A stretch of 64,000 nt of DNA from Mesorhizobium prunaredense (lineage in GTDB: Bacteria; Pseudomonadota; Alphaproteobacteria; Rhizobiales; Rhizobiaceae): assembly GCF_900156895.1 (NCBI RefSeq), contig NZ_FTPD01000056.1, forward strand, positions 208,034 to 272,033. The letters run 5' to 3'. Positions 43,702-59,115 of this stretch are shown here, in pieces. Position numbers and translations under genes: made by a program. How positions within the stretch are numbered: position 1 is the first letter of the stretch; each line of letters starts with the position of its first letter. Below the pieces are notes generated by a model. It saw nothing but the letters and a program-made list of their open reading frames with translations, ran no database searches and was not told where the DNA came from.

Positions 43702-44976
43702 TCATCGCTTTTGTTTGATTTGTTTAGCATCCGCGGGCGCCTCGGGTGCGGCTTCCCAGCCGAACACGCTGCGGCCGCCGAGCGGATGCGACCGATCGAA
43801 CTCTCCGGCGACGATTTCCTCCAGGCTGGGGCCGGTGACATAGCGTTCGACCTGCCGCGACTGGTCGTCCAGCCGCTTCAAGGCACCGATTTCTTCGTCG
43901 CGACCGAGCCTGGCCTTGTGGACGGCCGACTTCAGGACGCCGATCGTCTCGTCATAGACTTTCAGCGGCACGGGGAATGGATGCCTGTCCTTGCCGCCAT
44001 GTGCCAGCGAGAAGCGCCCGGGATCGGAAAACCGGCATGGCGCGCCGTGCAGAACCTCGGCAACCAGCGCCAGCGCCCGCACCGTGCGCGCACCGACGCC
44101 GGGGACCAGGAGAAGTTCTGAGAAATCGGCGGGGCCACGCTCGGCAGCCGCCGCCATGTTGCCATGAAGACGACGCATGACGACATCGCTTTCGCGAACG
44201 TCGTGGTGCGCCGGCATGGCCAGGTGCGGCAGCATTGGCTGGTCGGGCTCCGGTGCGACAGCCACATCACGTTCGAGCGCGGCGAACTCCCTCAGAATGC
44301 GATCCGGTCCGAGATCCTGCAGGAGGTCCAACTGGCCCTTGCGCGAGGCGTCGGCGCGGCGGTCGGTCAGGTTGACGATCTCGCCCTGGTTGGCGCCTTC
44401 GATGGCGGCATGCGGCTGCTCGACGAAACTCTTCAGGCCTTCGGACAGCCAGTGATAGCGGCGCGCCACCTTGCTGTCGCCGTTCATGCCCTGCTGCACC
44501 ACGACCCAGTCGCCGTCATCGGTGACGATAAAGCCATGCAGATAAAGGTCGAAGCCGTCCTGGACGGCGGCGCTGTCAACCTTGGCGACGAGCCTGCTGG
44601 CCGTTGCCAGGGCTGTTCCATCGAAGCCGACGCGCTCGCCGATGACGGCAAGCTCATGCGGGGTTTTGCGCGAATGCGCGCCGCGGCCGCCGCACACGTG
44701 AATACCGAGTTCGCCGGAAAGCGGAGCCAAACCACGTTTGAGGGCACCGATGACGCTGGTCGTGATGCCGGAGGAATGCCAGTCCATTCCCATGACGGCG
44801 CCAAACGACTGGAACCAGAAGGGATGCGCCAGCCGGCGCAGCAGCTCCTCGCGACCGTAATGGTGAATGATCGCCTCACACATGACCGCGCTAAGCCGCG
44901 TCATACGGTCGCCAAGCCATTTCGGCACGCGTCCGCCATGAAGTGGGAGGTCTGCGCTTCCCGATCGTTGTGCCAA
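43702..44976 (-). CDS. DUF763 family protein
   Basis: This 424-residue protein begins RSGSADLPLHGGRVPKWLGDRM and continues with GMDWHSSGITTSVIGALKRGL and HLCGGRG-like ICGGRGAHSRKTP, matching the DUF763 signature. A helix-hairpin-helix-like segment (LLLVPGVGARTVRALALVAEVLHG) suggests DNA contact. The likely start is TTG at 44976, since the conserved N-terminus begins immediately after it. The biochemical function is unknown; a role in DNA repair is only suggested by the HhH motif and the nearby AlkB and NHEJ genes. Confidence 0.88.
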   Translation of the reverse strand: MAQRSGSADLPLHGGRVPKWLGDRMTRLSAVMCEAIIHHYGREELLRRLAHPFWFQSFGAVMGMDWHSSGITTSVIGALKRGLAPLSGELGIHVCGGRGAHSRKTPHELAVIGERVGFDGTALATASRLVAKVDSAAVQDGFDLYLHGFIVTDDGDWVVVQQGMNGDSKVARRYHWLSEGLKSFVEQPHAAIEGANQGEIVNLTDRRADASRKGQLDLLQDLGPDRILREFAALERDVAVAPEPDQPMLPHLAMPAHHDVRESDVVMRRLHGNMAAAAERGPADFSELLLVPGVGARTVRALALVAEVLHGAPCRFSDPGRFSLAHGGKDRHPFPVPLKVYDETIGVLKSAVHKARLGRDEEIGALKRLDDQSRQVERYVTGPSLEEIVAGEFDRSHPLGGRSVFGWEAAPEAPADAKQIKQKR

Positions 44977-45110: not shown

Positions 45111-45758
45111 TCATCGAACTATCGCTTCTGATCGAGTCGACCGTTGCGGGCGCAGGGTCCGCAGGGTGATCGAATAACGGTGCGCGGCAACCGGCTGGAT
45201 GCTGTGCGCCCATTCGGTGCGCGCCCGGCCCGTCATCAGGTAAGCCGACCTTGGCTCGAGGGTGACGGTCTCGCGAGCCCATCTCGTGCCGTTCTTCCGG
45301 CGGAGCCTAAAGCTGCATGGCGCAAGAAGAGAAACGCCGGCCACGGCATCGAACTGCGGCTTGTCGCGATGCCAGCCGATACCCGCGCCGGGCCGGTACT
45401 CGTTGATCAAGACCTGCACGAAAGCATCGGCGGGCAGCCGCGCAAATGCCGCCACCTTGTCCCTGAGCGGCATCAGAAAAGCAGGGATCGCCGGCGCCTC
45501 GACGACTTTGCGTTGGTCAAAATCGTAGCGCAGGCCAAACCCGGCGACGCGCCGGTTTGCGAGATGGCCATGAAAGTCGAAAGGCTGGAAGGCGAGACTT
45601 TCGAGCTGCCGCACCAGCTCGGCCTCTTCCTCCGCCGTGATCAGCTCCGGCTGGTAGTGAAATCCTTCCGGCAGGTCGTCACGTGCGTGAAAGTCGGGCG
45701 CGAGCAACAGGTCGCCTTGTCCGGCGAATTGCGGCTGCCTGGTCTTGAGCGATGGCAT
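45111..45758 (-). CDS. alkB: AlkB-like 2-oxoglutarate/Fe(II) dioxygenase
   Basis: The product is 215 residues. The iron-binding triad is H130-x-D132 (GWHRDKP) and H185 (TEWAHSIQP). RYSITLRTLR supplies the 2-oxoglutarate-binding arginines (R194, R200). LINEYRPGAGIGWH matches the N-Y-Y-x-x-G region of the AlkB family. It would remove alkyl lesions from DNA or RNA bases by oxidative dealkylation; within the family it may be an AlkB2-type paralogue. It lies between DUF763 and the KTSC gene in the stress region. Confidence 0.9.
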   Translation of the reverse strand: MPSLKTRQPQFAGQGDLLLAPDFHARDDLPEGFHYQPELITAEEEAELVRQLESLAFQPFDFHGHLANRRVAGFGLRYDFDQRKVVEAPAIPAFLMPLRDKVAAFARLPADAFVQVLINEYRPGAGIGWHRDKPQFDAVAGVSLLAPCSFRLRRKNGTRWARETVTLEPRSAYLMTGRARTEWAHSIQPVAAHRYSITLRTLRPQRSTRSEAIVR

Positions 45759-46258: not shown

Positions 46259-46304
46259 TTGGAGCGCTGCTGCGGTGCAGAACCTTTGATCGCGGAGGGC
46301 AGCG

Positions 46305-46480
46305 CCCCCCTCTGTCCTGCCGGACATCTCCCCCACTTGGGGGAGATTGCCAGCTTCGCGGACATCGTCCTTTTTTGCACGGTTGGTGGTTGGCGAAATC
46401 GGTGGTGACGTCCAATCTCCCCCCTAGTGGGTCCCTAGTGGGTCCCTAGTGGGGGAGATGTCCGGCAGGACAGAGGGGGG
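46305..46480. repeat. Perfect 32-bp inverted repeat around 112 bases
   Basis: The arm at 46305-46336 (begins CCCCCCTCTGTCCTGCC) is the exact reverse complement of 46449-46480 (ends GGACAGAGGGGGG). The inner ends add short hairpins (CTCCCCCACTTGGGGGAG). It has the look of a non-coding dispersed element or a miniature inverted-repeat element; no target-site duplication was identified. Confidence 0.85.
46424..46453. repeat. 11-bp tandem triplication (CTAGTGGGTCC)
   Basis: Two full copies of CTAGTGGGTCC plus a third partial copy are adjacent (46424, 46435, 46446), at the inner edge of the right arm of the 32-bp inverted repeat. It probably arose by slippage in the repeat arm. Confidence 0.85.
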
Positions 46481-46610
46481 CGCGAAGGATCGCTACATTG
46501 CGCTTTTATTCTGAGCCGCAGAGGTCGCTTGGCTCCTGCTCCGCGCTGGGATGACGAAACCACCCCGTGCCTTTGTCGTCCGTGGTGCGTCCGCTCGGTC
46601 GGCCGATCCC

Positions 46611-46838
46611 TCACTGCGCCGGGGGCGTACCGGGTTGATCGCCGCCCGTGGTCGTCTTCGGCGTCGGATCCTTGTCGATCTCGGGATTTTGGTCGACGGT
46701 GTTGGTGTTGCTCTGTGTCGGTTCAGTGCTGCTGGTGCTGCCCTGTGTCGGCTCGGCCTCGTTGCTGCAACCCGCCAGAGCCAGAGCCGCCACCAGCGCC
46801 GACAAAAACGACAGTCTCGTCAGTGATAATCCAGTCAT
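46611..46838 (-). CDS. Small lipoprotein, Thr/Pro-rich
   Basis: The product is 75 residues. The signal MTGLSLTRLSFLSALVAALA ends in the lipobox LAGC, so the mature protein would be lipid-anchored at Cys24. The mature part is low-complexity (T, P, Q, S, D) without recognisable domains. The ATG at 46838 has GGGAG upstream. GCAAC-N16-CGTT upstream (46865-46889) is a weak EcfG-like match. It is divergent from ku. Confidence 0.65.
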   Translation of the reverse strand: MTGLSLTRLSFLSALVAALALAGCSNEAEPTQGSTSSTEPTQSNTNTVDQNPEIDKDPTPKTTTGGDQPGTPPAQ

Positions 46839-46957
46839 GGCCAACCGCTCCCTTGCTGCTCGACAACGGCGGGTGGTGAATTTGGTTGCAGCGGAATGGC
46901 TTATCTGCTGGCCCACTGGCCCATGACCCCTCTGATCATCGCCGCGCAGGCGCCAAA

Positions 46958-46983
46958 GGAACAAATCGCGGCGCCGCCACGTT
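46958..46983 (+). promoter_or_regulatory. EcfG/RpoE2-type stress promoter of ku-ligD
   Basis: GGAAC (46958-46962), a 17-base spacer and CGTT (46980-46983) fully match the general-stress consensus, 40 bases before the ku start. Stress-inducible NHEJ under RpoE2 is established in Sinorhizobium meliloti, which supports this reading. Confidence 0.82.
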
Positions 46984-47023
46984 GCATTTCCTGAGCAATG
47001 TTTGTGACAGTGAGGCTATTGTC

Positions 47024-47893
47024 TTGGCGCCGAGAGCAAATTGGAAGGGTTTTCTGAAAATCGGAGAACTCAGCTGCCCAGTGGCGCTCTACACGGCTGC
47101 CTCAGCCTCAGAGCGGATCGCCTTCCACACGATAAACCGCGCCACCGGCCATAGGGTGCATCGCGCCTTCGTCGACAGCGATAGCGGCAAGCCGGTCGAG
47201 AAGGACGACCAGGTCAAAGGCTTTGAGATCGGCTCGGGTGAGTACGTCGTGCTCGAACCCGATGAGGTCGCAGCCGCTGTCCCGGAGAGCGACAAGACGC
47301 TGTCGGTCTCGGCCTTCATCGGCTGTGCCGATGTCGACGATGTGTATTTCGACAAGCCTTATTACCTGGCCCCGTCGGACAAACACGCTGAGGAAGCGTT
47401 TGGGCTGATCCGCGAAGGCATGCGCAGGAAGAAGGTCGCCGCGATCACCCAGACCGTGCTGTTCCGGCGCGTCCGGACCCTGCTTATCCGCGCCTATGAC
47501 GAAGGCCTGGTCGCAACGACGCTGAATTTCGACTACGAGGTGCGCTCGGCGGAGGAGGCTTTCGACAACATCCCCGGCTTGAAGATCGAGGGCGAGATGC
47601 TCGAACTGGCCGAACATATCATCAAGACCAAGAAGGGCAAATTCGATCCGACCAAATTCGACGACCGTTATGAGGCGGCGCTCGCCGAGCTAGTGAAGGC
47701 AAAGCTCGAAGGCAAGAAGATCGCCGTTCCGAAGCCGGCAAAGCGGGAGAAGGTCGTCGATCTTATGGATGCGCTGCGCCAGAGTGCCGGCGTTGGCGGC
47801 AAGCAGCCCTCGACAAGAAAGCCCGCGGCAAAGTCAAAGCCAGCGCGCCATGCCAAGGCGAAGCAGACAGCGCCGCGTCGGAAGGCCGGCTGA
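47024..47893 (+). CDS. ku: Ku DNA end-binding protein (NHEJ), first copy
   Basis: The product is 289 residues. LAPRANWKGFLKIGELSCPVALYTAAS is the standard rhizobial Ku start, and the Ku core runs to about residue 230, followed by a Lys/Ala-rich tail (KPAAKSKPARHAKAKQTAPRRKAG) that can contact DNA or LigD. The start is probably TTG at 47024, with GAGG eight bases upstream; the upstream open frame is not conserved-looking. It binds double-strand ends as a homodimer and recruits LigD, whose gene begins three bases later. A full EcfG-type promoter precedes it. Confidence 0.95.
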   Translation: MAPRANWKGFLKIGELSCPVALYTAASASERIAFHTINRATGHRVHRAFVDSDSGKPVEKDDQVKGFEIGSGEYVVLEPDEVAAAVPESDKTLSVSAFIGCADVDDVYFDKPYYLAPSDKHAEEAFGLIREGMRRKKVAAITQTVLFRRVRTLLIRAYDEGLVATTLNFDYEVRSAEEAFDNIPGLKIEGEMLELAEHIIKTKKGKFDPTKFDDRYEAALAELVKAKLEGKKIAVPKPAKREKVVDLMDALRQSAGVGGKQPSTRKPAAKSKPARHAKAKQTAPRRKAG

Positions 47894-47896
47894 CCG

Positions 47897-50446
47897 ATGG
47901 CGCTCGAGACCTACCGCAAGAAGCGCAATTTTTCCGTTACCCCGGAGCCGCAGGGCCGCAGGGCGCCCAGGACCGGCAACAGCTTCGTCATACAGAAGCA
48001 CGATGCCACCCGGCTCCATTATGATTTTCGTCTCGAAATGGACGGCGTCCTTAAGAGCTGGGCCGTCACAAAAGGGCCGAGCCTGGTCCCCGGCGAGAAG
48101 CGTCTTGCCGTCCACGTCGAGGACCATCCTCTGGAATATGGCGACTTCGAAGGCACAATCCCGAAGGGCGAGTATGGCGGCGGCACCGTCCTCCTTTGGG
48201 ACAGAGGCGCCTGGACGCCGATCGGCGACGCGCATCGCGGCTATGCGAAAGGCCATCTCGATTTCGAACTTCACGGCGAGAAGCTTGGCGGCCGCTGGCA
48301 TCTTGTGCGGATGGCCGGAAAGCCCCGGGAGAAGCGCGAGAACTGGCTGCTGATCAAAGGCGACGATGACGCCGCGCGCACCGAAGGTGATCCCGACATT
48401 CTGGACGAGCGGCCGGAATCCGTCGCGACCGGCCGCAAGATCGAGGACGTCGCCGGCGAAGAGCCCGGCTGGTCGTCCAAGACAGGGCGCATTCGCAAGC
48501 GCCGCGGCGGCAGCACGAGGGCCGGTCCAGCCGAAGAGCCTCCCGCCACTGGCAGCATTCCCGAACCGTCAAAGATCAAGGGCGCCAAGAAGGCGGCGCT
48601 TCCCGATTTCGTCGAGCCTACGCTGGCGACCCTGGTCTCGTCCGCGCCATCGGGCGAGCGCTGGCTGCACGAGATCAAATTCGACGGCTACCGGCTGCAG
48701 GCCAGGATCGAAGCCGGCCGCGTCAAACTGTTGACGCGAAGCGGTCTCGACTGGACGAAGAAATTCGGAAAGGCGGTCGTTTCGGCGCTGGCCGATATCC
48801 CTGTCGGGACGGCGCTGATCGACGGTGAACTCGTGGTCGAGACATCCGCCGGCGCATCGGATTTCTCCGCGCTGCAAGCCGATCTCAGCGAGGGCCGCAG
48901 TGATCGCTTTCGCTTCTACGTCTTCGACCTGCTTCATCTCGACGGCTACGATCTGCGCGACGTTGCGTTGATCAAGCGCAAGGAATTGCTGGAAAAGATC
49001 ATCGGCAGTGACAGCGGCATCATCAGCTACAGCGGCCATTTTGAGGAGGATGGCGCCCTGGTGCTGCGACACGCCTGTCGGCTGAGCCTGGAAGGCATTG
49101 TCTCCAAGCTTCGCGATGTGCCCTACCGCTCCGGCCGCAGCAAGAACTGGGTGAAGTCGAAATGCTCGGCGCGGCAGGAATTTGTCGTGGCCGGCTTTAT
49201 CCCCTCGACAACCTCGCGCAAGGCGATCGGTTCGCTTGTCCTGGGTGTCTATGACGACGGCAAGCTTCATCATGTCGGGCGCGTCGGCACCGGCTACACG
49301 GCAGCGGTCGCCGAGAGCCTGTTCAAGAAGCTCGAACGGATACGCATTCCGTCAAGCCCGTTCGACGAGCGGCTGAGCGCCGACGAGGCTCGGCTAGTCC
49401 GCTATGTCAGGCCGGACCTCGTCGCCGAAGTCGAGTTCCGGGCGTGGACCGCCGACGGCAATCTGCGCCACGCCTCGTTCCGCGGATTGCGCGAAGACAA
49501 GCCGGCGAAGGAGATCGTGCGCGAGACGCCGAAGACGAGCAAGGAGGTGGCTAAACCCCAGCGCCGGACCGTCAAGCTCACCCATCCCGACCGCCTCTAC
49601 TGGCCGGACGAGGGCGTGACCAAGGAAGGTCTCGCCGACTATTATGCCGAGGTCTGGCGCTATGCGTCGCCCTACATCGTCGGCCGGGCGCTGGCGCTGG
49701 TGCGATGTCCCAACGGGATTTCGGGCGAGCAATTCTTCCAGAAGCATGCCTGGAAGGGGCTCAATCCAAGCATCGTACTGGTCCACGACCCCAAGGATCC
49801 GCCCGACGAGCGGCTGATCAGCATCAATGATCTCGACGGGCTGATCGGTCTCGTCCAGTCGGCGGCGCTGGAGATCCACCCCTGGGGCTCGACGGTGAGC
49901 GATTGGGAGCGTCCGGATACGATCATCATGGATCTCGACCCCGGCGAGGGCGTGAGCTGGGAGGCGGTGATCGAAGCCGCCGTCGAGACCCGCGACCGGC
50001 TGAAGGATGCAGGGCTTGTCCCCTTCATCAAGACCTCCGGTGGCAAGGGTCTGCACGTCGTGGCGCCGTTGAAGCCGAAAGCGGAATGGCCTGTTGTAAA
50101 AGCCTTCACCAAGGCGATTGCCGACTCCATGGCTTCGGACAGTCCTGGCCGTTACGTCTCGACCATCACCAAATCCAAACGGCGCGGAAAAATCCTCGTC
50201 GACTATCTGCGCAACCAGCGCGGTGCGACCGCGGTCGCACCCTATTCGACAAGAGCACGGCCGGGTGCGGCGGTGTCGATGCCGCTTGCCTGGGACGAGC
50301 TCGGCCCCGGCATCGGATCGGCCTATTTTACCGTCGAGAACACGCCGACCCGGCTTGCCTCGCTCGCGTCGGACCCCTGGCAGGATTTCCGCGCGGCCGC
50401 AGCGCCAATCGAAGACCGTGCAAACCGGCGCAAGAAAGCGGCTTGA
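47897..50446 (+). CDS. ligD: Multifunctional NHEJ DNA ligase LigD
   Basis: The product is 849 residues with three domains in the order phosphoesterase, ligase, polymerase. The phosphoesterase (about 20-170) has FVIQKHDATRLHYDFRLEM. The ATP-dependent ligase (about 230-540) has nucleotidyl Lys261 in EIKFDGYRLQ. The polymerase/primase (about 570-840) has the metal-binding IIMDLDPGEG. It processes and seals broken ends held by Ku. It sits three bases after ku and is surely cotranscribed with it. Confidence 0.97.
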   Translation: MALETYRKKRNFSVTPEPQGRRAPRTGNSFVIQKHDATRLHYDFRLEMDGVLKSWAVTKGPSLVPGEKRLAVHVEDHPLEYGDFEGTIPKGEYGGGTVLLWDRGAWTPIGDAHRGYAKGHLDFELHGEKLGGRWHLVRMAGKPREKRENWLLIKGDDDAARTEGDPDILDERPESVATGRKIEDVAGEEPGWSSKTGRIRKRRGGSTRAGPAEEPPATGSIPEPSKIKGAKKAALPDFVEPTLATLVSSAPSGERWLHEIKFDGYRLQARIEAGRVKLLTRSGLDWTKKFGKAVVSALADIPVGTALIDGELVVETSAGASDFSALQADLSEGRSDRFRFYVFDLLHLDGYDLRDVALIKRKELLEKIIGSDSGIISYSGHFEEDGALVLRHACRLSLEGIVSKLRDVPYRSGRSKNWVKSKCSARQEFVVAGFIPSTTSRKAIGSLVLGVYDDGKLHHVGRVGTGYTAAVAESLFKKLERIRIPSSPFDERLSADEARLVRYVRPDLVAEVEFRAWTADGNLRHASFRGLREDKPAKEIVRETPKTSKEVAKPQRRTVKLTHPDRLYWPDEGVTKEGLADYYAEVWRYASPYIVGRALALVRCPNGISGEQFFQKHAWKGLNPSIVLVHDPKDPPDERLISINDLDGLIGLVQSAALEIHPWGSTVSDWERPDTIIMDLDPGEGVSWEAVIEAAVETRDRLKDAGLVPFIKTSGGKGLHVVAPLKPKAEWPVVKAFTKAIADSMASDSPGRYVSTITKSKRRGKILVDYLRNQRGATAVAPYSTRARPGAAVSMPLAWDELGPGIGSAYFTVENTPTRLASLASDPWQDFRAAAAPIEDRANRRKKAA

Positions 50447-50478
50447 GGACGGCACTACGAGTGCATGCATCGGAATAA

Positions 50479-51519
50479 TCAGGCGATCTGCTCGAAAGTG
50501 CATTGCTCCGGAGCCTTGTCCGGCCGCCAGCGCAGGAACTTGGTGCCGTGCCGGAAACGGTCGCCGGTGACGTGATCGAAGCGTACCTCGACCACCAGTT
50601 CGGGCCGGACCGGCTCCCATTCGCCGCTGCTCTCGGTGCTCCAGCGGCTCGGTCCGCCCGGCGCCTTTCCGGTAAAGCCGGGTGGCTCGCGCATGGCTTC
50701 GAGTTTGCGGGTAAGCTCGGCCCTGTCCTCCTTGGCAATGGTCGAGGTGAAACCGACGTGATCGAGCTTGCCGGCCTCGTTGTACAGACCCAGCAACAAT
50801 GAACCGACCTGCGGACTGTTGCTGAGATAGCGAAAGCCGCCGACCACGCAATCGGCCGACCGCAACCGCTTTACCTTCACCATCGCGCGCACCCCCGGTT
50901 GGTACGGACCGTCCAGCCGCTTGGCGACCACGCCGTCTGTCGCCCCATGTCCGGCATCCCCTAACCAGGAGCGGGCTTCCTTTACATCGCGCGTACAGTG
51001 CGAAAGCACGATGTTCCTGCGGTTTGCCGAAGCGACGAAAGCCTCAAGGATCGCTCGCCGTTTTTTCAGGGTCCGCGCCAACCAGACGGTTCCGTGCTCA
51101 TCGCAGAGCATGTCGAACAGGACGATGCGAGCCGGGGTTTCGGCGGACAGCTTGCGGATCCTGCTCTCGGCGGGATGAAGCCGCATCTGGAGCGCGTCGA
51201 ACGAAAACTTGCCGTCGACCGAGATGACGATTTCACCGTCGACGACAAAACGGCGCGACGGTAGTTCCTTCAATGTCGCGACGAGTTCGGGAAAATAGCG
51301 TCCGAGCGGCTTGCCTGACTTTGCGCGCAACTCCACCGCATCATCCTGCCGGAATGCCAGGCAGCGAAAACCATCCCATTTGCGTTCGTATTGCCATCCG
51401 TCTCCTTCGGGAATCGCATCGGCCGCCTTTGCCTCCATCGGAGGCGTATCGAGCGGCAGGAGGAAATCGCTGGATCGGCGGGTGCTGTCGAAAGCAGGAT
51501 CGCGGGGTATGACCTTCAT
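50479..51519 (-). CDS. ATP-dependent DNA ligase, ligase domain only (LigC/LigD-like)
   Basis: This 346-residue protein has the adenylation motif YERKWDGFRCLA (nucleotidyl Lys), the VVDGEIV and DGVVAKRLDGPY motifs and the oligonucleotide-binding domain to the end. It lacks phosphoesterase and polymerase domains. The ATG at 51519 is used because the open frame upstream of it has no homology. It follows the second ku gene by 41 bases on the minus strand, so the two probably form a unit, and it converges on ligD. Confidence 0.92.
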   Translation of the reverse strand: MKVIPRDPAFDSTRRSSDFLLPLDTPPMEAKAADAIPEGDGWQYERKWDGFRCLAFRQDDAVELRAKSGKPLGRYFPELVATLKELPSRRFVVDGEIVISVDGKFSFDALQMRLHPAESRIRKLSAETPARIVLFDMLCDEHGTVWLARTLKKRRAILEAFVASANRRNIVLSHCTRDVKEARSWLGDAGHGATDGVVAKRLDGPYQPGVRAMVKVKRLRSADCVVGGFRYLSNSPQVGSLLLGLYNEAGKLDHVGFTSTIAKEDRAELTRKLEAMREPPGFTGKAPGGPSRWSTESSGEWEPVRPELVVEVRFDHVTGDRFRHGTKFLRWRPDKAPEQCTFEQIA

Positions 51520-51560
51520 TGTGCTGCCTTTGTCCCCCAGCCCAGCCTGCTCCCAGGCGC

Positions 51561-52364
51561 TTATTTCCGCTTTCCGGCCTCCGAGCCGATGCTCTTGCGC
51601 AGCGCATCCATGATGTTGATCACGTTGCTGGCCGGTTGCTCGGCCTTGGTCTTCGCCTTGGCCGGACCCTTCTTGCCCTTCTTCTTCGAGGCAATGATCT
51701 CCAGCAGCCGCGCCTGGACGGGATCTCCAGTCATGGCGGGATCCCACTGCCTGGTTCGCTCATCGATAAGGGTCGAGACCATATCCATCAGTTTCGGGTC
51801 GGGTTTGACGTTGTCGATCTTGCCGAAATAATCCTCGGGATCGCGAACCTCGTCGCCATAGCGCAGTGTCCACAGCACGATGCCCTTGCCTCGTGGTTCA
51901 AGCATGACGGCGCGTTCGCGGCGGTACATGACCAGTCGCGATATTCCGACCGTCCCCGTCGATTGCATCGCGTCGCGAATGACCGAGAATGCCTCCTCCC
52001 CCACCGGGTCGTCAGGGGTGAGATAGTGCGGCTTGTCGTACCAGATCCAGCCGATGCTGTCGGCATCGACAAACATGTCGATGTCGATGGTGCGCGTGCT
52101 CTCGAGCGCGACCGCGTCGATCTCGTCGTCCTCGAGCAGGACGTATTCGTCCTCGCCGCGCTGGTACCCCTTCACCTCGTCGTCTTCAGCAACGGGCTTG
52201 CCGCTGACGGCATCGACATATTGGCTGACCACCCGATGCCCGCTCTTGCGATTGAGCGTATGGAACCGGACTTTTTCGCTCTCGGTGGTAGCGGGCGTCA
52301 TCGCGACCGGGCAGGTCACCAGCGAAAGCTTCAGATAGCCTTTCCAGAAAGGACGTGGCGCCAT
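51561..52364 (-). CDS. ku: Ku DNA end-binding protein, second copy
   Basis: The product is 267 residues starting MAPRPFWKGYLKLSLVTCPVAM, a second, clearly diverged Ku. Its C-terminal tail is short and basic (KKKGKKGPAKAKTKAEQ). The ATG at 52364 follows a GGGGG run; the frame is open further but without homology. A full EcfG-type promoter lies on the same strand 30 bases upstream. Multiple Ku proteins with different partners and stress control are known in rhizobia; whether the two form homo- or heterodimers is not predictable here. Confidence 0.95.
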   Translation of the reverse strand: MAPRPFWKGYLKLSLVTCPVAMTPATTESEKVRFHTLNRKSGHRVVSQYVDAVSGKPVAEDDEVKGYQRGEDEYVLLEDDEIDAVALESTRTIDIDMFVDADSIGWIWYDKPHYLTPDDPVGEEAFSVIRDAMQSTGTVGISRLVMYRRERAVMLEPRGKGIVLWTLRYGDEVRDPEDYFGKIDNVKPDPKLMDMVSTLIDERTRQWDPAMTGDPVQARLLEIIASKKKGKKGPAKAKTKAEQPASNVINIMDALRKSIGSEAGKRK

Positions 52365-52394
52365 CGAGCACCCCCGGCAGGAGTAAAACAGTCG

Positions 52395-52420
52395 AACGCA
52401 GCAGGGCGATCGATTGTTCC
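52395..52420 (-). promoter_or_regulatory. EcfG/RpoE2-type stress promoter of the second ku
   Basis: On the minus strand GGAAC (52420-52416), a 17-base spacer and CGTT (52398-52395) match the consensus fully, 30 bases upstream of the ku ATG. Confidence 0.8.
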
Positions 52421-52630
52421 AGCAGCGATTTTTTCGCGCGCCCAAGGCGAGCAGCCAAGAATCCATCTTTTTTCCGGTTCGAGAAGGAAGCGATGAACGC
52501 AAGCGCAGTTCGGGACGTACAAACAGCCCGGCGGCAGCGACGCGGCGCAGACCTCGCAGTGCTCCGGCCGACCAGAATCGAGCGCTACCACCCAGGCGCC
52601 GTTTCTGAACCGCAGCATTCTTTGGCGGAT

Positions 52631-52696
52631 GTAACGGCATGGATCTCAGGGTCTCCGCGACGTCGCTTCGCTCCTGCTCCGCCCTAGGATGACGAA
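52631..52696 (+). repeat. Interspersed repeat, right copy flanking the NHEJ locus
   Basis: Contains GTAACGGCATGGATC, GTCGCTTCGCTCC and GGATGACGAA, inverted relative to the left copy at 46202-46258. The surrounding gene-free interval 52421-52926 otherwise holds only a second partial match (GACGCGGCGCAGACCT, about 52539-52554, also found in the left copy) and no coding signal. Confidence 0.7.
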
Positions 52697-52926
52697 GGCG
52701 TTGTAGCTCGTTCTAATCGCTAGCGTTGGCGATAGCCCATGGGACAACCCTTTGCCGGAGAGCATCCGGGCCCAGAACCGGGTTCTCAATCGCATCGTTC
52801 GCCAATTTTTGCCAAGGGTTGATGAAACAATTTGCCCCAATCGCCGTTTCGCCAGCAAGCTGAATTTGGGCGAGGAGGAAGCCTGAGCAGCACCACGCCA
52901 GGGTTTCGGCCTTGGAGGTGAAGACT

Positions 52927-53631
52927 ATGCGCTTTAACGCCTTGAGATTCAAAGATCGAACGGATGCGGGGCGCCAGCTTGCCGCCGCTTTGACCAGGTT
53001 CGCGGCAACCGATCCACTGGTGCTGGCGCTGCCGCGCGGCGGCGTGCCGGTTGGCTTCGAAGTGGCGAAGGCACTCCGTGCCCGGCTCGACGTGCTGCTT
53101 GTGCGCAAGATCGGCGCGCCGGGCCATTCCGAATATGGCATCGGCGCGGTCGTCGACGGGGAAAATCCGCAGCTCGTCCTCAACGAGGAGGCGATGGCTT
53201 TGGTCCGGCCGTCAGACGAATACGTCGAAGCAGAGAAACGGCGGCAACTGCTCGAAATCGAACGCCGCAGAAAACTCTACCTCGGCAGCCGGCCTGCGGC
53301 TTCGGTCCTGGGCCAGACCGTCATCGTCGTCGATGACGGCATTGCGACCGGAGGCACGGTCAGAGTGGCGCTCAAGGCGCTAAGGAAGGATCGGGCGGCG
53401 CATGTCATGTTGGCCGTCCCGGTCGCACCCCGGGACACGCTGGACCTGATCAAAGCCGATGTGGACGAAGTGGTATGTCTCGCCACGCCTGAGCCTTTTG
53501 TTGCGGTGGGCCGATATTATGAGGATTTCGAACAGACCACGGACGCGGAGGTGATCCGGCTGCTGCGTGAGGCAGAGCAGTTTGAGAGCAGGTCGTCGAC
53601 GCGATCTGCCGAAGGAGCACGCCATGGCTAG
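52927..53631 (+). CDS. Phosphoribosyltransferase-family protein
   Basis: This 234-residue type I phosphoribosyltransferase fold has the PRPP-binding loop VIVVDDGIATGGTV. The N-terminal part LVLALPRGGVPVGFEVAKALRARLDVLLVRKIGAPG is typical of the stand-alone 'predicted phosphoribosyltransferase' group found with stress genes. The ATG at 52927 has GGAGG eight bases upstream. The substrate is unknown; some relatives are fused to hydrolases or erythromycin-esterase-like domains. Confidence 0.9.
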   Translation: MRFNALRFKDRTDAGRQLAAALTRFAATDPLVLALPRGGVPVGFEVAKALRARLDVLLVRKIGAPGHSEYGIGAVVDGENPQLVLNEEAMALVRPSDEYVEAEKRRQLLEIERRRKLYLGSRPAASVLGQTVIVVDDGIATGGTVRVALKALRKDRAAHVMLAVPVAPRDTLDLIKADVDEVVCLATPEPFVAVGRYYEDFEQTTDAEVIRLLREAEQFESRSSTRSAEGARHG

Positions 53632-58216: not shown

Positions 58217-59038
58217 TTAGGCGGGGTCTATCGCGTCCTTGAGCTTGCTCAGGAATGCCACCAGGGCATCCTCCGGCCGATCGGCCTCGTCGGTCAGCAT
58301 GTCGATACCCCAGCGTCCGAGAACCGCTTCCTGGACGACGCTCGGTTGCGGCATGAAGACGAACGATTTCGGACGATTCCTTTCATAACCGGACCGGCGC
58401 CAGGTTTCCCAAAGCCGATACAGCAACAGGCGGATGTTCATGTCTGACATGCTGTAGCCGATGAACAGGACGGTGCGCCCCAATGCGTCGGCGCGAAACT
58501 TCACGTCCAACGGCGACTCGAACGACAGCCGCTCGAAATAGTCGGACTCCGCCAGAACCAGCGATGCGTCGTCGTCGAAATCGCCGTGGTATTTAATGAT
58601 CTGGGTAACCTCGCCGTTCACCTTGGCGATATCCTTGGCATTGGCGACTTTTACGAACGCGCGGTCGTGGACTTCGAACGCAACCTCAAGGTTTCGATCA
58701 TAGTTGGTGGTGTAGATGATCGGAAAATCGAGTGACACGATCAGCTTGTGGATCGCCGATCCCTTGACTTTTTCCCGCGAGACGCTCCATTCGCGATCCA
58801 TCCAACTGCGCAAGGGGCCGAGACTGCCATGTTTTAGCCGGTAATATTCGGCAAGAGCCTGGTAGCTGGACTCGGGCCTGTCGACCACGTCTCGCTCGAG
58901 GCCGAGTTCATCCACCATATGCTCGATGAGCTTCTCCCAGGATGGCAGGCCGACGCTCATCGACACCCCCGCCCCGACGAACAGGATCGCTCGTCGCTCT
59001 TTCACGGATTGAGCCAGTTGCTCAAGTGCAGACGGCAT
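58217..59038 (-). CDS. SIR2-like domain protein
   Basis: This 273-residue protein is a single SIR2-like domain with ILFVGAGVSMSVGLPSWEKL (nucleotide-binding GAGxS), IYTTNYDRNLE (TxNYD, replacing the sirtuin TQNxD), KYHGDFDDDASLVLAESDY (HGD) and a late FIGYSMSDMNIRLLL (GYSxxD). This pattern is typical of stand-alone bacterial SIR2_2-type proteins, several of which act as NAD-depleting effectors in anti-phage systems. The ATG at 59038 is preferred over an upstream TTG. No partner gene (HerA, Argonaute, TIR) is adjacent, so the defence role is inference. Confidence 0.85.
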   Translation of the reverse strand: MPSALEQLAQSVKERRAILFVGAGVSMSVGLPSWEKLIEHMVDELGLERDVVDRPESSYQALAEYYRLKHGSLGPLRSWMDREWSVSREKVKGSAIHKLIVSLDFPIIYTTNYDRNLEVAFEVHDRAFVKVANAKDIAKVNGEVTQIIKYHGDFDDDASLVLAESDYFERLSFESPLDVKFRADALGRTVLFIGYSMSDMNIRLLLYRLWETWRRSGYERNRPKSFVFMPQPSVVQEAVLGRWGIDMLTDEADRPEDALVAFLSKLKDAIDPA

Positions 59039-59115
59039 GGCCAACTCACCGGGCAATGATCCAACACAACTGCGAACGGCGTCCTCTGTTCCGGAGAAGC
59101 CGGATCAGCGCCAGA

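Follow-up and report, generated by a model that had tools for sequence, protein, structure and literature searches.

The question raised by this locus is whether two diverged Ku proteins, encoded face to face with two DNA ligases between them, serve two end-joining machines or a single one. The window, i.e. the whole stretch of DNA that was analysed, represents 64 kb out of a 7.0 Mb genome (82 contigs), and the nearest named relatives of its KuB, among the matches listed, are from Mesorhizobium (98% identity). Between positions 46958 and 52420, an EcfG-type site is followed by kuA and ligD and then, on the opposite strand, by ligC, kuB and a second EcfG-type site:

46958..46983, + strand: EcfG/RpoE2-type motif GGAAC-N17-CGTT, ending 40 nt before the kuA start codon
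47024..47893, + strand: kuA, 289 aa, TTG start at 47024, Glu15 at the filament-anchor position
47897..50446, + strand: ligD, PE-LIG-POL, 849 aa, directly 3' of kuA
50479..51519, - strand: ligC, ligase-only, ATP-dependent, 346 aa, PRK08224 type, 41 nt downstream of kuB
51561..52364, - strand: kuB, 267 aa, Leu15 retained at the filament anchor
52395..52420, - strand: EcfG/RpoE2-type motif GGAAC-N17-CGTT, ending 30 nt before the kuB start codon

The locus is real and its anatomy, as first described, is confirmed: the ORFs and their Pfam and NCBIfam domains place the four genes at these positions and on these strands, the two operons converging with 32 nt between the stop codons of ligD and ligC. 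Both Ku match PF02735 far over the Pfam cut-off and TIGR02772 (bacterial Ku, NCBIfam) over their full length, with 277 and 297 bits for a cut-off of 150. LigD carries in one chain the LigD_N (PE), DNA_ligase_A_M and A_C (LIG) and LigD_Prim-Pol (POL) domains (PF13298, PF01068, PF04679 and PF21686), is over the cut-off for TIGR02776 and PRK05972 (NCBIfam), and is 82% identical to the LigD found beside KuA in S. fredii NGR234. The ligase-only gene had been taken for a paralogue of ligD, and a close one it is not: its product contains the LIG domains without PE or POL, matches best NF006078/PRK08224 (459 bits, cut-off 296), which we take to be the LigC type, and scores 81 bits against the LIG domain of the neighbouring LigD versus 793 bits against itself. 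None of kuA, ligD, ligC and kuB was matched by PADLOC.

In the surroundings, genes for a DUF763 protein (43702-44976, - strand) and an AlkB-like 2OG-Fe(II) oxygenase (45111-45758, - strand) are located upstream of kuA. Both recur within 9 kb in the Mesorhizobium relatives L025-L028, four loci among the best 80 of 433, and neither appears within that distance in the 76 others. A SIR2-domain protein (58217-59056, - strand), whose gene is preceded by a relaxed EcfG-like site, gives a ThsA-like PADLOC match of 109 bits, and such a gene is again near the Ku locus in L025-L028. Around CTCCCCCACTTGGGGGAG, in the region 46300-46480, there is a palindromic repeat, and a similar stretch runs in the opposite sense; the repeat is presumably a dispersed rhizobial element.

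The presentation of the locus as a double-Ku system calls for one correction. Two ku genes are found in it, and they are two of the three of the genome, since a third ku is located on another contig (C21) with its own PE-LIG-POL ligD just upstream. The genome contains 16 LIG-domain matches, of which two are below the cut-off and some correspond to pieces. The third Ku and its LigD are, respectively, 86.7% and 76% identical to the S. meliloti Ku encoded at 1489863 on pSymB and to the PE-LIG-POL LigD beside it, a Ku which is itself of the third type. We take the pair to be the relative of S. meliloti Ku2-LigD2, which has its counterpart there and not in the kuA/kuB locus. Ku2 is said to act as a homodimer with LigD2 (Dupuy et al. 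2019, S. meliloti). The third Ku and its LigD likely form a homodimeric system, and for any second complex in the cell this unlinked pair would be a better candidate than KuB-LigC.

The EcfG consensus is GGAAC-N16/17-CGTT. Full stress promoters had been proposed for both ku genes, and as motifs they were borne out, GGAAC-N17-CGTT being present 30-40 nt upstream of each. The 64-kb window contains 8 strict sites, for 1.05 expected from shuffles and about 1.3 from the genome-wide rate (144 in 7.0 Mb). Shortly after six of the eight an ORF of 70 aa or more begins, some of these ORFs being unconvincing as genes. Over the whole genome, the reversed control outnumbers the strict motif (193 versus 144), and motif abundance was rejected on these counts as a proof of stress control; because the motif does not exceed this control genome-wide, the evidence lies in its position upstream of orthologues. 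For each distinct Ku start in the related loci, the preceding 250 nt were scanned for GGAAC-N16/17-NGTT, and a site was detected for 58 of 78 KuA and 63 of 85 KuB, when 0.9 and 0.4 were expected from dinucleotide shuffles. The strict CGTT form was present in 50/78 and 48/85 (0.3 and 0.2 expected from the same kind of shuffles), and the site ends 22-60 nt before the start codon for 47 of the 58 KuA sites and 60 of the 63 KuB sites. Several KuB genes devoid of a site stand in tandem behind kuA (e.g. L098, L104, L112). On the reverse strand of the same stretches, relaxed sites were counted for 16/78 KuA and 18/85 KuB, well above the forward-strand shuffle expectation against which they were set; divergent stress genes may account for them.

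For the third type, the stress motif was detected upstream of 0/3 ku and 0/2 of the accompanying ligD, and the search for sigma-70 promoters in 46400-53000 gave two for 1.3 expected, neither at a ku start. Stress control is likely shared by both operons, as judged from these motifs. The two Ku had been described as induced together in two specialised complexes; the joint induction stands at the level of motifs, which are common upstream of both genes in relatives, while the census described below disfavours the two complexes. A stress-controlled ku has a precedent in the class, since the Sphingopyxis ku-ligD genes are reported as a direct GSR target in a passage of PMC7083833. In Mesorhizobium loti MAFF303099, three of four ku (mll4607, mlr9623 and mlr9624) and one of three ligD (mll9625) are given as heat-induced in a section of PMC3989490; two of these ku have neighbouring locus numbers, and the likeness to the present locus is one of description only.

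KuA and KuB share 38% identity and each is about equally far from the third Ku (41%). In a tree of 169 Ku, KuA (80 sequences), KuB (86) and the third type (3) formed three clades with a support of 100 each; with more outgroups (220 rows), the support remained 100 for clade B and was 79 for clade A. The two tandem Ku of S. meliloti 1021 pSymB are distributed between them, the one at 1337188 falling into clade A and the one at 1338081 into clade B, with 64.5% and 64.8% identity to KuA and KuB of the window. A further S. meliloti Ku, on pSymA (L111), is of the KuB type and stands alone. An alphaproteobacterial locus, L129, carries a deep-branching KuA/KuB pair (48% and 52% identity) in convergent orientation with a LigD-sized gap.

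We use Ku1-Ku4, LigD2 and LigD4 as what we take to be the names of the S. meliloti genes, the tandem pSymB pair presumably being Ku3/Ku4. Dupuy et al. 2019 reportedly gave genetic grounds for a Ku3-Ku4 heterodimer acting with LigD4 in a stress-inducible NHEJ. The S. meliloti system and the present locus have clades A and B in common, together with the logic of two Ku for one LigD, and the first of the tandem pSymB ku is preceded, 29 nt upstream, by a relaxed RpoE2-type site ending in GGTT. They differ in that the S. meliloti ku are in tandem whereas kuA-ligD and kuB-ligC converge in the window; moreover LigD4, unlike the LigD of the window, is unlinked and lacks PE. We assume that LigD4 is the 667-aa LIG-POL gene product encoded at pSymB 665007. 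The Ku2-LigD2 and Ku3/Ku4-LigD4 pathways are both described, in a section of PMC12844678, as induced through RpoE2.

The inheritance of the two genes was followed across the order with a presence cut-off of E <= 1e-90, in 297 genomes whose completeness was 95% or more. KuA was present in 62 of them and KuB in the identical 62, the sampled genomes being kin so that 62 carriers are not 62 independent events, and no genome among the 297 had KuA or KuB alone at this cut-off. Each Ku was represented by 65 copies, with equal counts in every genome and three genomes with two of each. The pairs were linked within 9 kb in 63 of 65 cases; 50 were convergent, 8 on the same strand, 5 divergent and 2 on different contigs. 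The third Ku, used as control (E <= 1e-80), was found in 17/297 genomes, 5 with the pair and 12 without it. In a class-wide sample of 290 genomes, KuA was detected in five and KuB in the same five at E <= 1e-78, the cut-offs having been chosen after the class-wide KuA result was seen. Weaker matches, up to 1e-60, added 11 genomes for KuA and 13 for KuB, in partial agreement, and were treated as other Ku types. In G135, the last genome counted, the KuA match reached 4e-80, the next one being 1e-75, and the tree places G135 beside clade A.

The named loci are the best 80 of 433 confirmed KuB loci, a set biased to near relatives. Within it, 76/80 had a KuA-type match, one of them partial, within 9 kb. 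In 71 loci kuA was convergent (68 of these with LigD between the two genes), in five it was on the same strand, the partial KuA match of L099 being at the end of its locus, and two loci were cut by a contig end. The remaining two of the best 80, L083 and L086, showed KuB with no KuA nearby, the pair being present elsewhere in the species (L084, L046). These two second copies of kuB and that of pSymA (L111) may be redundant or may have switched partner. In Paracoccus aminovorans, kuA (L169, 4001-4834) and kuB-ligD (L170, 4001-4807) are 248 kb apart on one plasmid. This kuA is near PRC-barrel and ferritin-like genes.

Because the two ku genes occur together or not at all in the genomes surveyed, their products probably form one mixed ring rather than two machines, and the census extends to these genomes what had been the case of a single species, S. 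meliloti. The same joint inheritance would also follow from two homodimers acting in one pathway, or from carriage on a cassette. According to the latter explanation, the locus would be a mobile DNA-repair cassette of plasmids and accessory replicons, and joint presence would merely reflect the travel of a block. Relatives of both Ku are indeed common on plasmid records, the distribution is patchy within the genus of the window (both Ku in 4/9 sampled genomes, neither in 5/9), and one pair lies beside repABC: in Ensifer adhaerens (L105, 1-9569), the kuA-ligD/kuB module is about 1.5 kb from repABC on a 736 kb plasmid. Against this, the genes have repeatedly changed order and orientation, in some copies they are not linked, and both are equally numerous where the pair is duplicated; if the cassette involved no functional dependence, singletons would be expected, and there are none among the 62 genomes. 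We regard passive co-travel as very improbable. The E. adhaerens module has, in addition, a KTSC-domain gene between ligD and kuB.

The distribution of ligC bears on the two specialised complexes of the earlier note, in which KuA-LigD and KuB-LigC would be separate, homodimeric and co-induced. Such an arrangement would fit the window itself, where each ku has a stress-type site to itself and a separate ligase gene behind it, and a DLMxAL / INIMDAL-like motif is retained at the C-terminus in both Ku clades. In the best 80 of 433 loci, however, ligC is between the ku genes in only four, all of Mesorhizobium, and in 64 LigD alone is found between convergent kuA and kuB. LigC (E <= 1e-80) is present in 31 of the 297 genomes, 12 with the Ku pair and 19 without it; beyond the Mesorhizobium arrangement, it is near the pair in that sample only in G292 and G489. 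Relatives of LigC are encoded far from the Ku genes on S. meliloti pSymB and NGR234 pNGR234b. KuB, the supposed partner of LigC, was never seen without KuA in the 297 genomes at E <= 1e-90. KuA and KuB thus appear interdependent, since they occupy the same 62 genomes, and LigC stays outside that bond, since most of its carriers lack the pair. The best reading of LigC is that of a local addition to the locus, and two separate complexes are unlikely.

The usual description of bacterial Ku is that of a homodimer, and recent structures show filaments on DNA. The solved homodimers polymerise along DNA, both arms bearing a hydrophobic anchor loop. In B. subtilis Ku (bsKu), Leu30 inserts into the next ring, and the L30G or N32E substitutions eliminate oligomers while DNA binding is not significantly reduced, as stated in a passage of PMC12784961; for M. 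tuberculosis Ku (mKu), the L13A/V14A mutant is similarly described, in a part of PMC12658125, as deprived of filaments and still able to bind DNA. The anchor position (mKu Leu13 / bsKu Leu30) falls in an ungapped stretch of our alignment, a few residues past a near-invariant W-x-G. It is acidic in 86/90 KuA (86/91 with L129 counted in clade A) whereas it is Leu in 97/97 KuB, in 10/10 Ku of the third type and in 20/20 other alphaproteobacterial Ku. In the window, the Leu of filament formers is replaced by Glu15 in KuA and kept as Leu15 in KuB. Exceptions with Leu (L093, L164), Ala (L157, L129) or Gln (L032) show that not every KuA has the acidic anchor, which may have arisen later than the pair. 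L129, whose KuA combines an anchor Ala with an Arg at the position of mKu residue 30, may show the state that preceded the asymmetry.

With an acidic anchor in KuA and Leu in KuB, one arm of a mixed ring may be blocked. We tentatively suggest, as a possibility less probable than its contrary, that KuA and KuB form an obligate heterodimer for a self-limiting synapse, in which the KuB arm would stay sticky and the KuA arm would be blocked or re-specified. Two KuA:KuB rings, one per broken end, would then dock and stop without growth of a filament or, alternatively, would dock only in a fixed A-to-B direction. The asymmetry of the anchor, as read from the alignment, appears to be new here, and no earlier statement of the filament-arm idea was found in the open-licence PMC literature searched.

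The residues facing DNA and those at the dimer contacts were compared between the clades. Eight DNA contacts of mKu are named in a section of PMC12784962, and KuB retains mostly basic residues at two of them (62 and 88), where KuA is basic too. KuA has in addition an Arg at the position of mKu Tyr44 (80/80), which is Ser in 82/86 KuB. The basic tail after the C-terminal motif has a median of 32 aa and a net charge of +8 in KuA (for the 50/80 matched by the first pattern), and 12 aa and +4 in KuB (83/86). The other 30 KuA, inspected by eye, bear variants such as DLMEALRQSAG or DLLQALRESAG, so that the motif is kept in both subunits. In B. subtilis, a minimal C-terminal region of Ku binds LigD, according to a passage of PMC13201618.

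An enrichment of clade-specific residues in the published dimer bridge was expected and was not borne out by the column counts: 10/29 clade-conserved columns differ in the bridge, for 14/24 in the sling and 20/46 elsewhere. The Glu65:Arg30 salt bridge of mKu could be formed as KuA-Glu65:KuB-Arg30 in 77/80 pairs, within KuA homodimers in 0/80, within KuB homodimers in 20/80, and as KuB-65:KuA-30 in 0/80. This argument is weak because the other alphaproteobacterial Ku mostly lack Arg30 too (present in 3/21, one being the KuA-like L129). His32, also named in this interface of mKu, is common to both clades. The pattern is at most suggestive of a KuA:KuB pairing.

The differences in DNA-contact residues, notably at Tyr44, would also suit two Ku homodimers with differing end preferences in one LigD pathway, for instance each at a different end or each at a different stage, early or late, without any mixed ring; joint inheritance is explained equally well in this way. 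The loss of several mKu DNA contacts in KuB would be more easily tolerated in a mixed ring, and the S. meliloti genetics reportedly favour the Ku3-Ku4 heterodimer. Two homodimers sharing one pathway are, in our opinion, improbable.

We consider it probable, from the inheritance of the two genes and the Ku3/Ku4 case, that a single end-joining machine, induced by stress and built on a KuA:KuB heterodimer, is encoded at this locus. The EcfG general stress sigma factor would transcribe kuA-ligD and kuB-ligC from opposite ends through the motifs observed there. KuA and KuB would pair as one asymmetric ring on DNA ends, and the ring would recruit the PE-LIG-POL LigD via the conserved C-terminal motif of Ku. 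LigD, as predicted from its domains, would then trim, fill and seal the ends. LigC would be an optional extra ligase behind kuB in a part of Mesorhizobium, perhaps for nick sealing. It resembles the mycobacterial LigC, of which a section of PMC5663958 treats, by its match to PRK08224, and differs from it in that the ligC of the window follows a ku gene, the sole primase-polymerase of the locus being that of LigD.

If the heterodimer is right, the locus resembles eukaryotic Ku70/Ku80 in having two diverged subunits in one ring; in Ku70/80 too, as a passage of PMC12784961 has it, the filament-interface residues are not conserved. The locus differs from Ku70/Ku80 in that the Pfam matches of KuA and KuB are confined to the Ku core and in that the ligase is LigD. 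The KuA/KuB pair would have an origin separate from that of Ku70/Ku80. If the proposed pairing is true, a two-subunit Ku arose among bacteria in parallel with Ku70/Ku80, in an alphaproteobacterial branch and with one filament-blocked subunit. The bridging of ends by Ku rings, now inferred from homodimer filaments, would become testable by subunit-specific mutation. Genomes with multiple Ku would be recast as well, their number of ku genes exceeding the number of their NHEJ machines.
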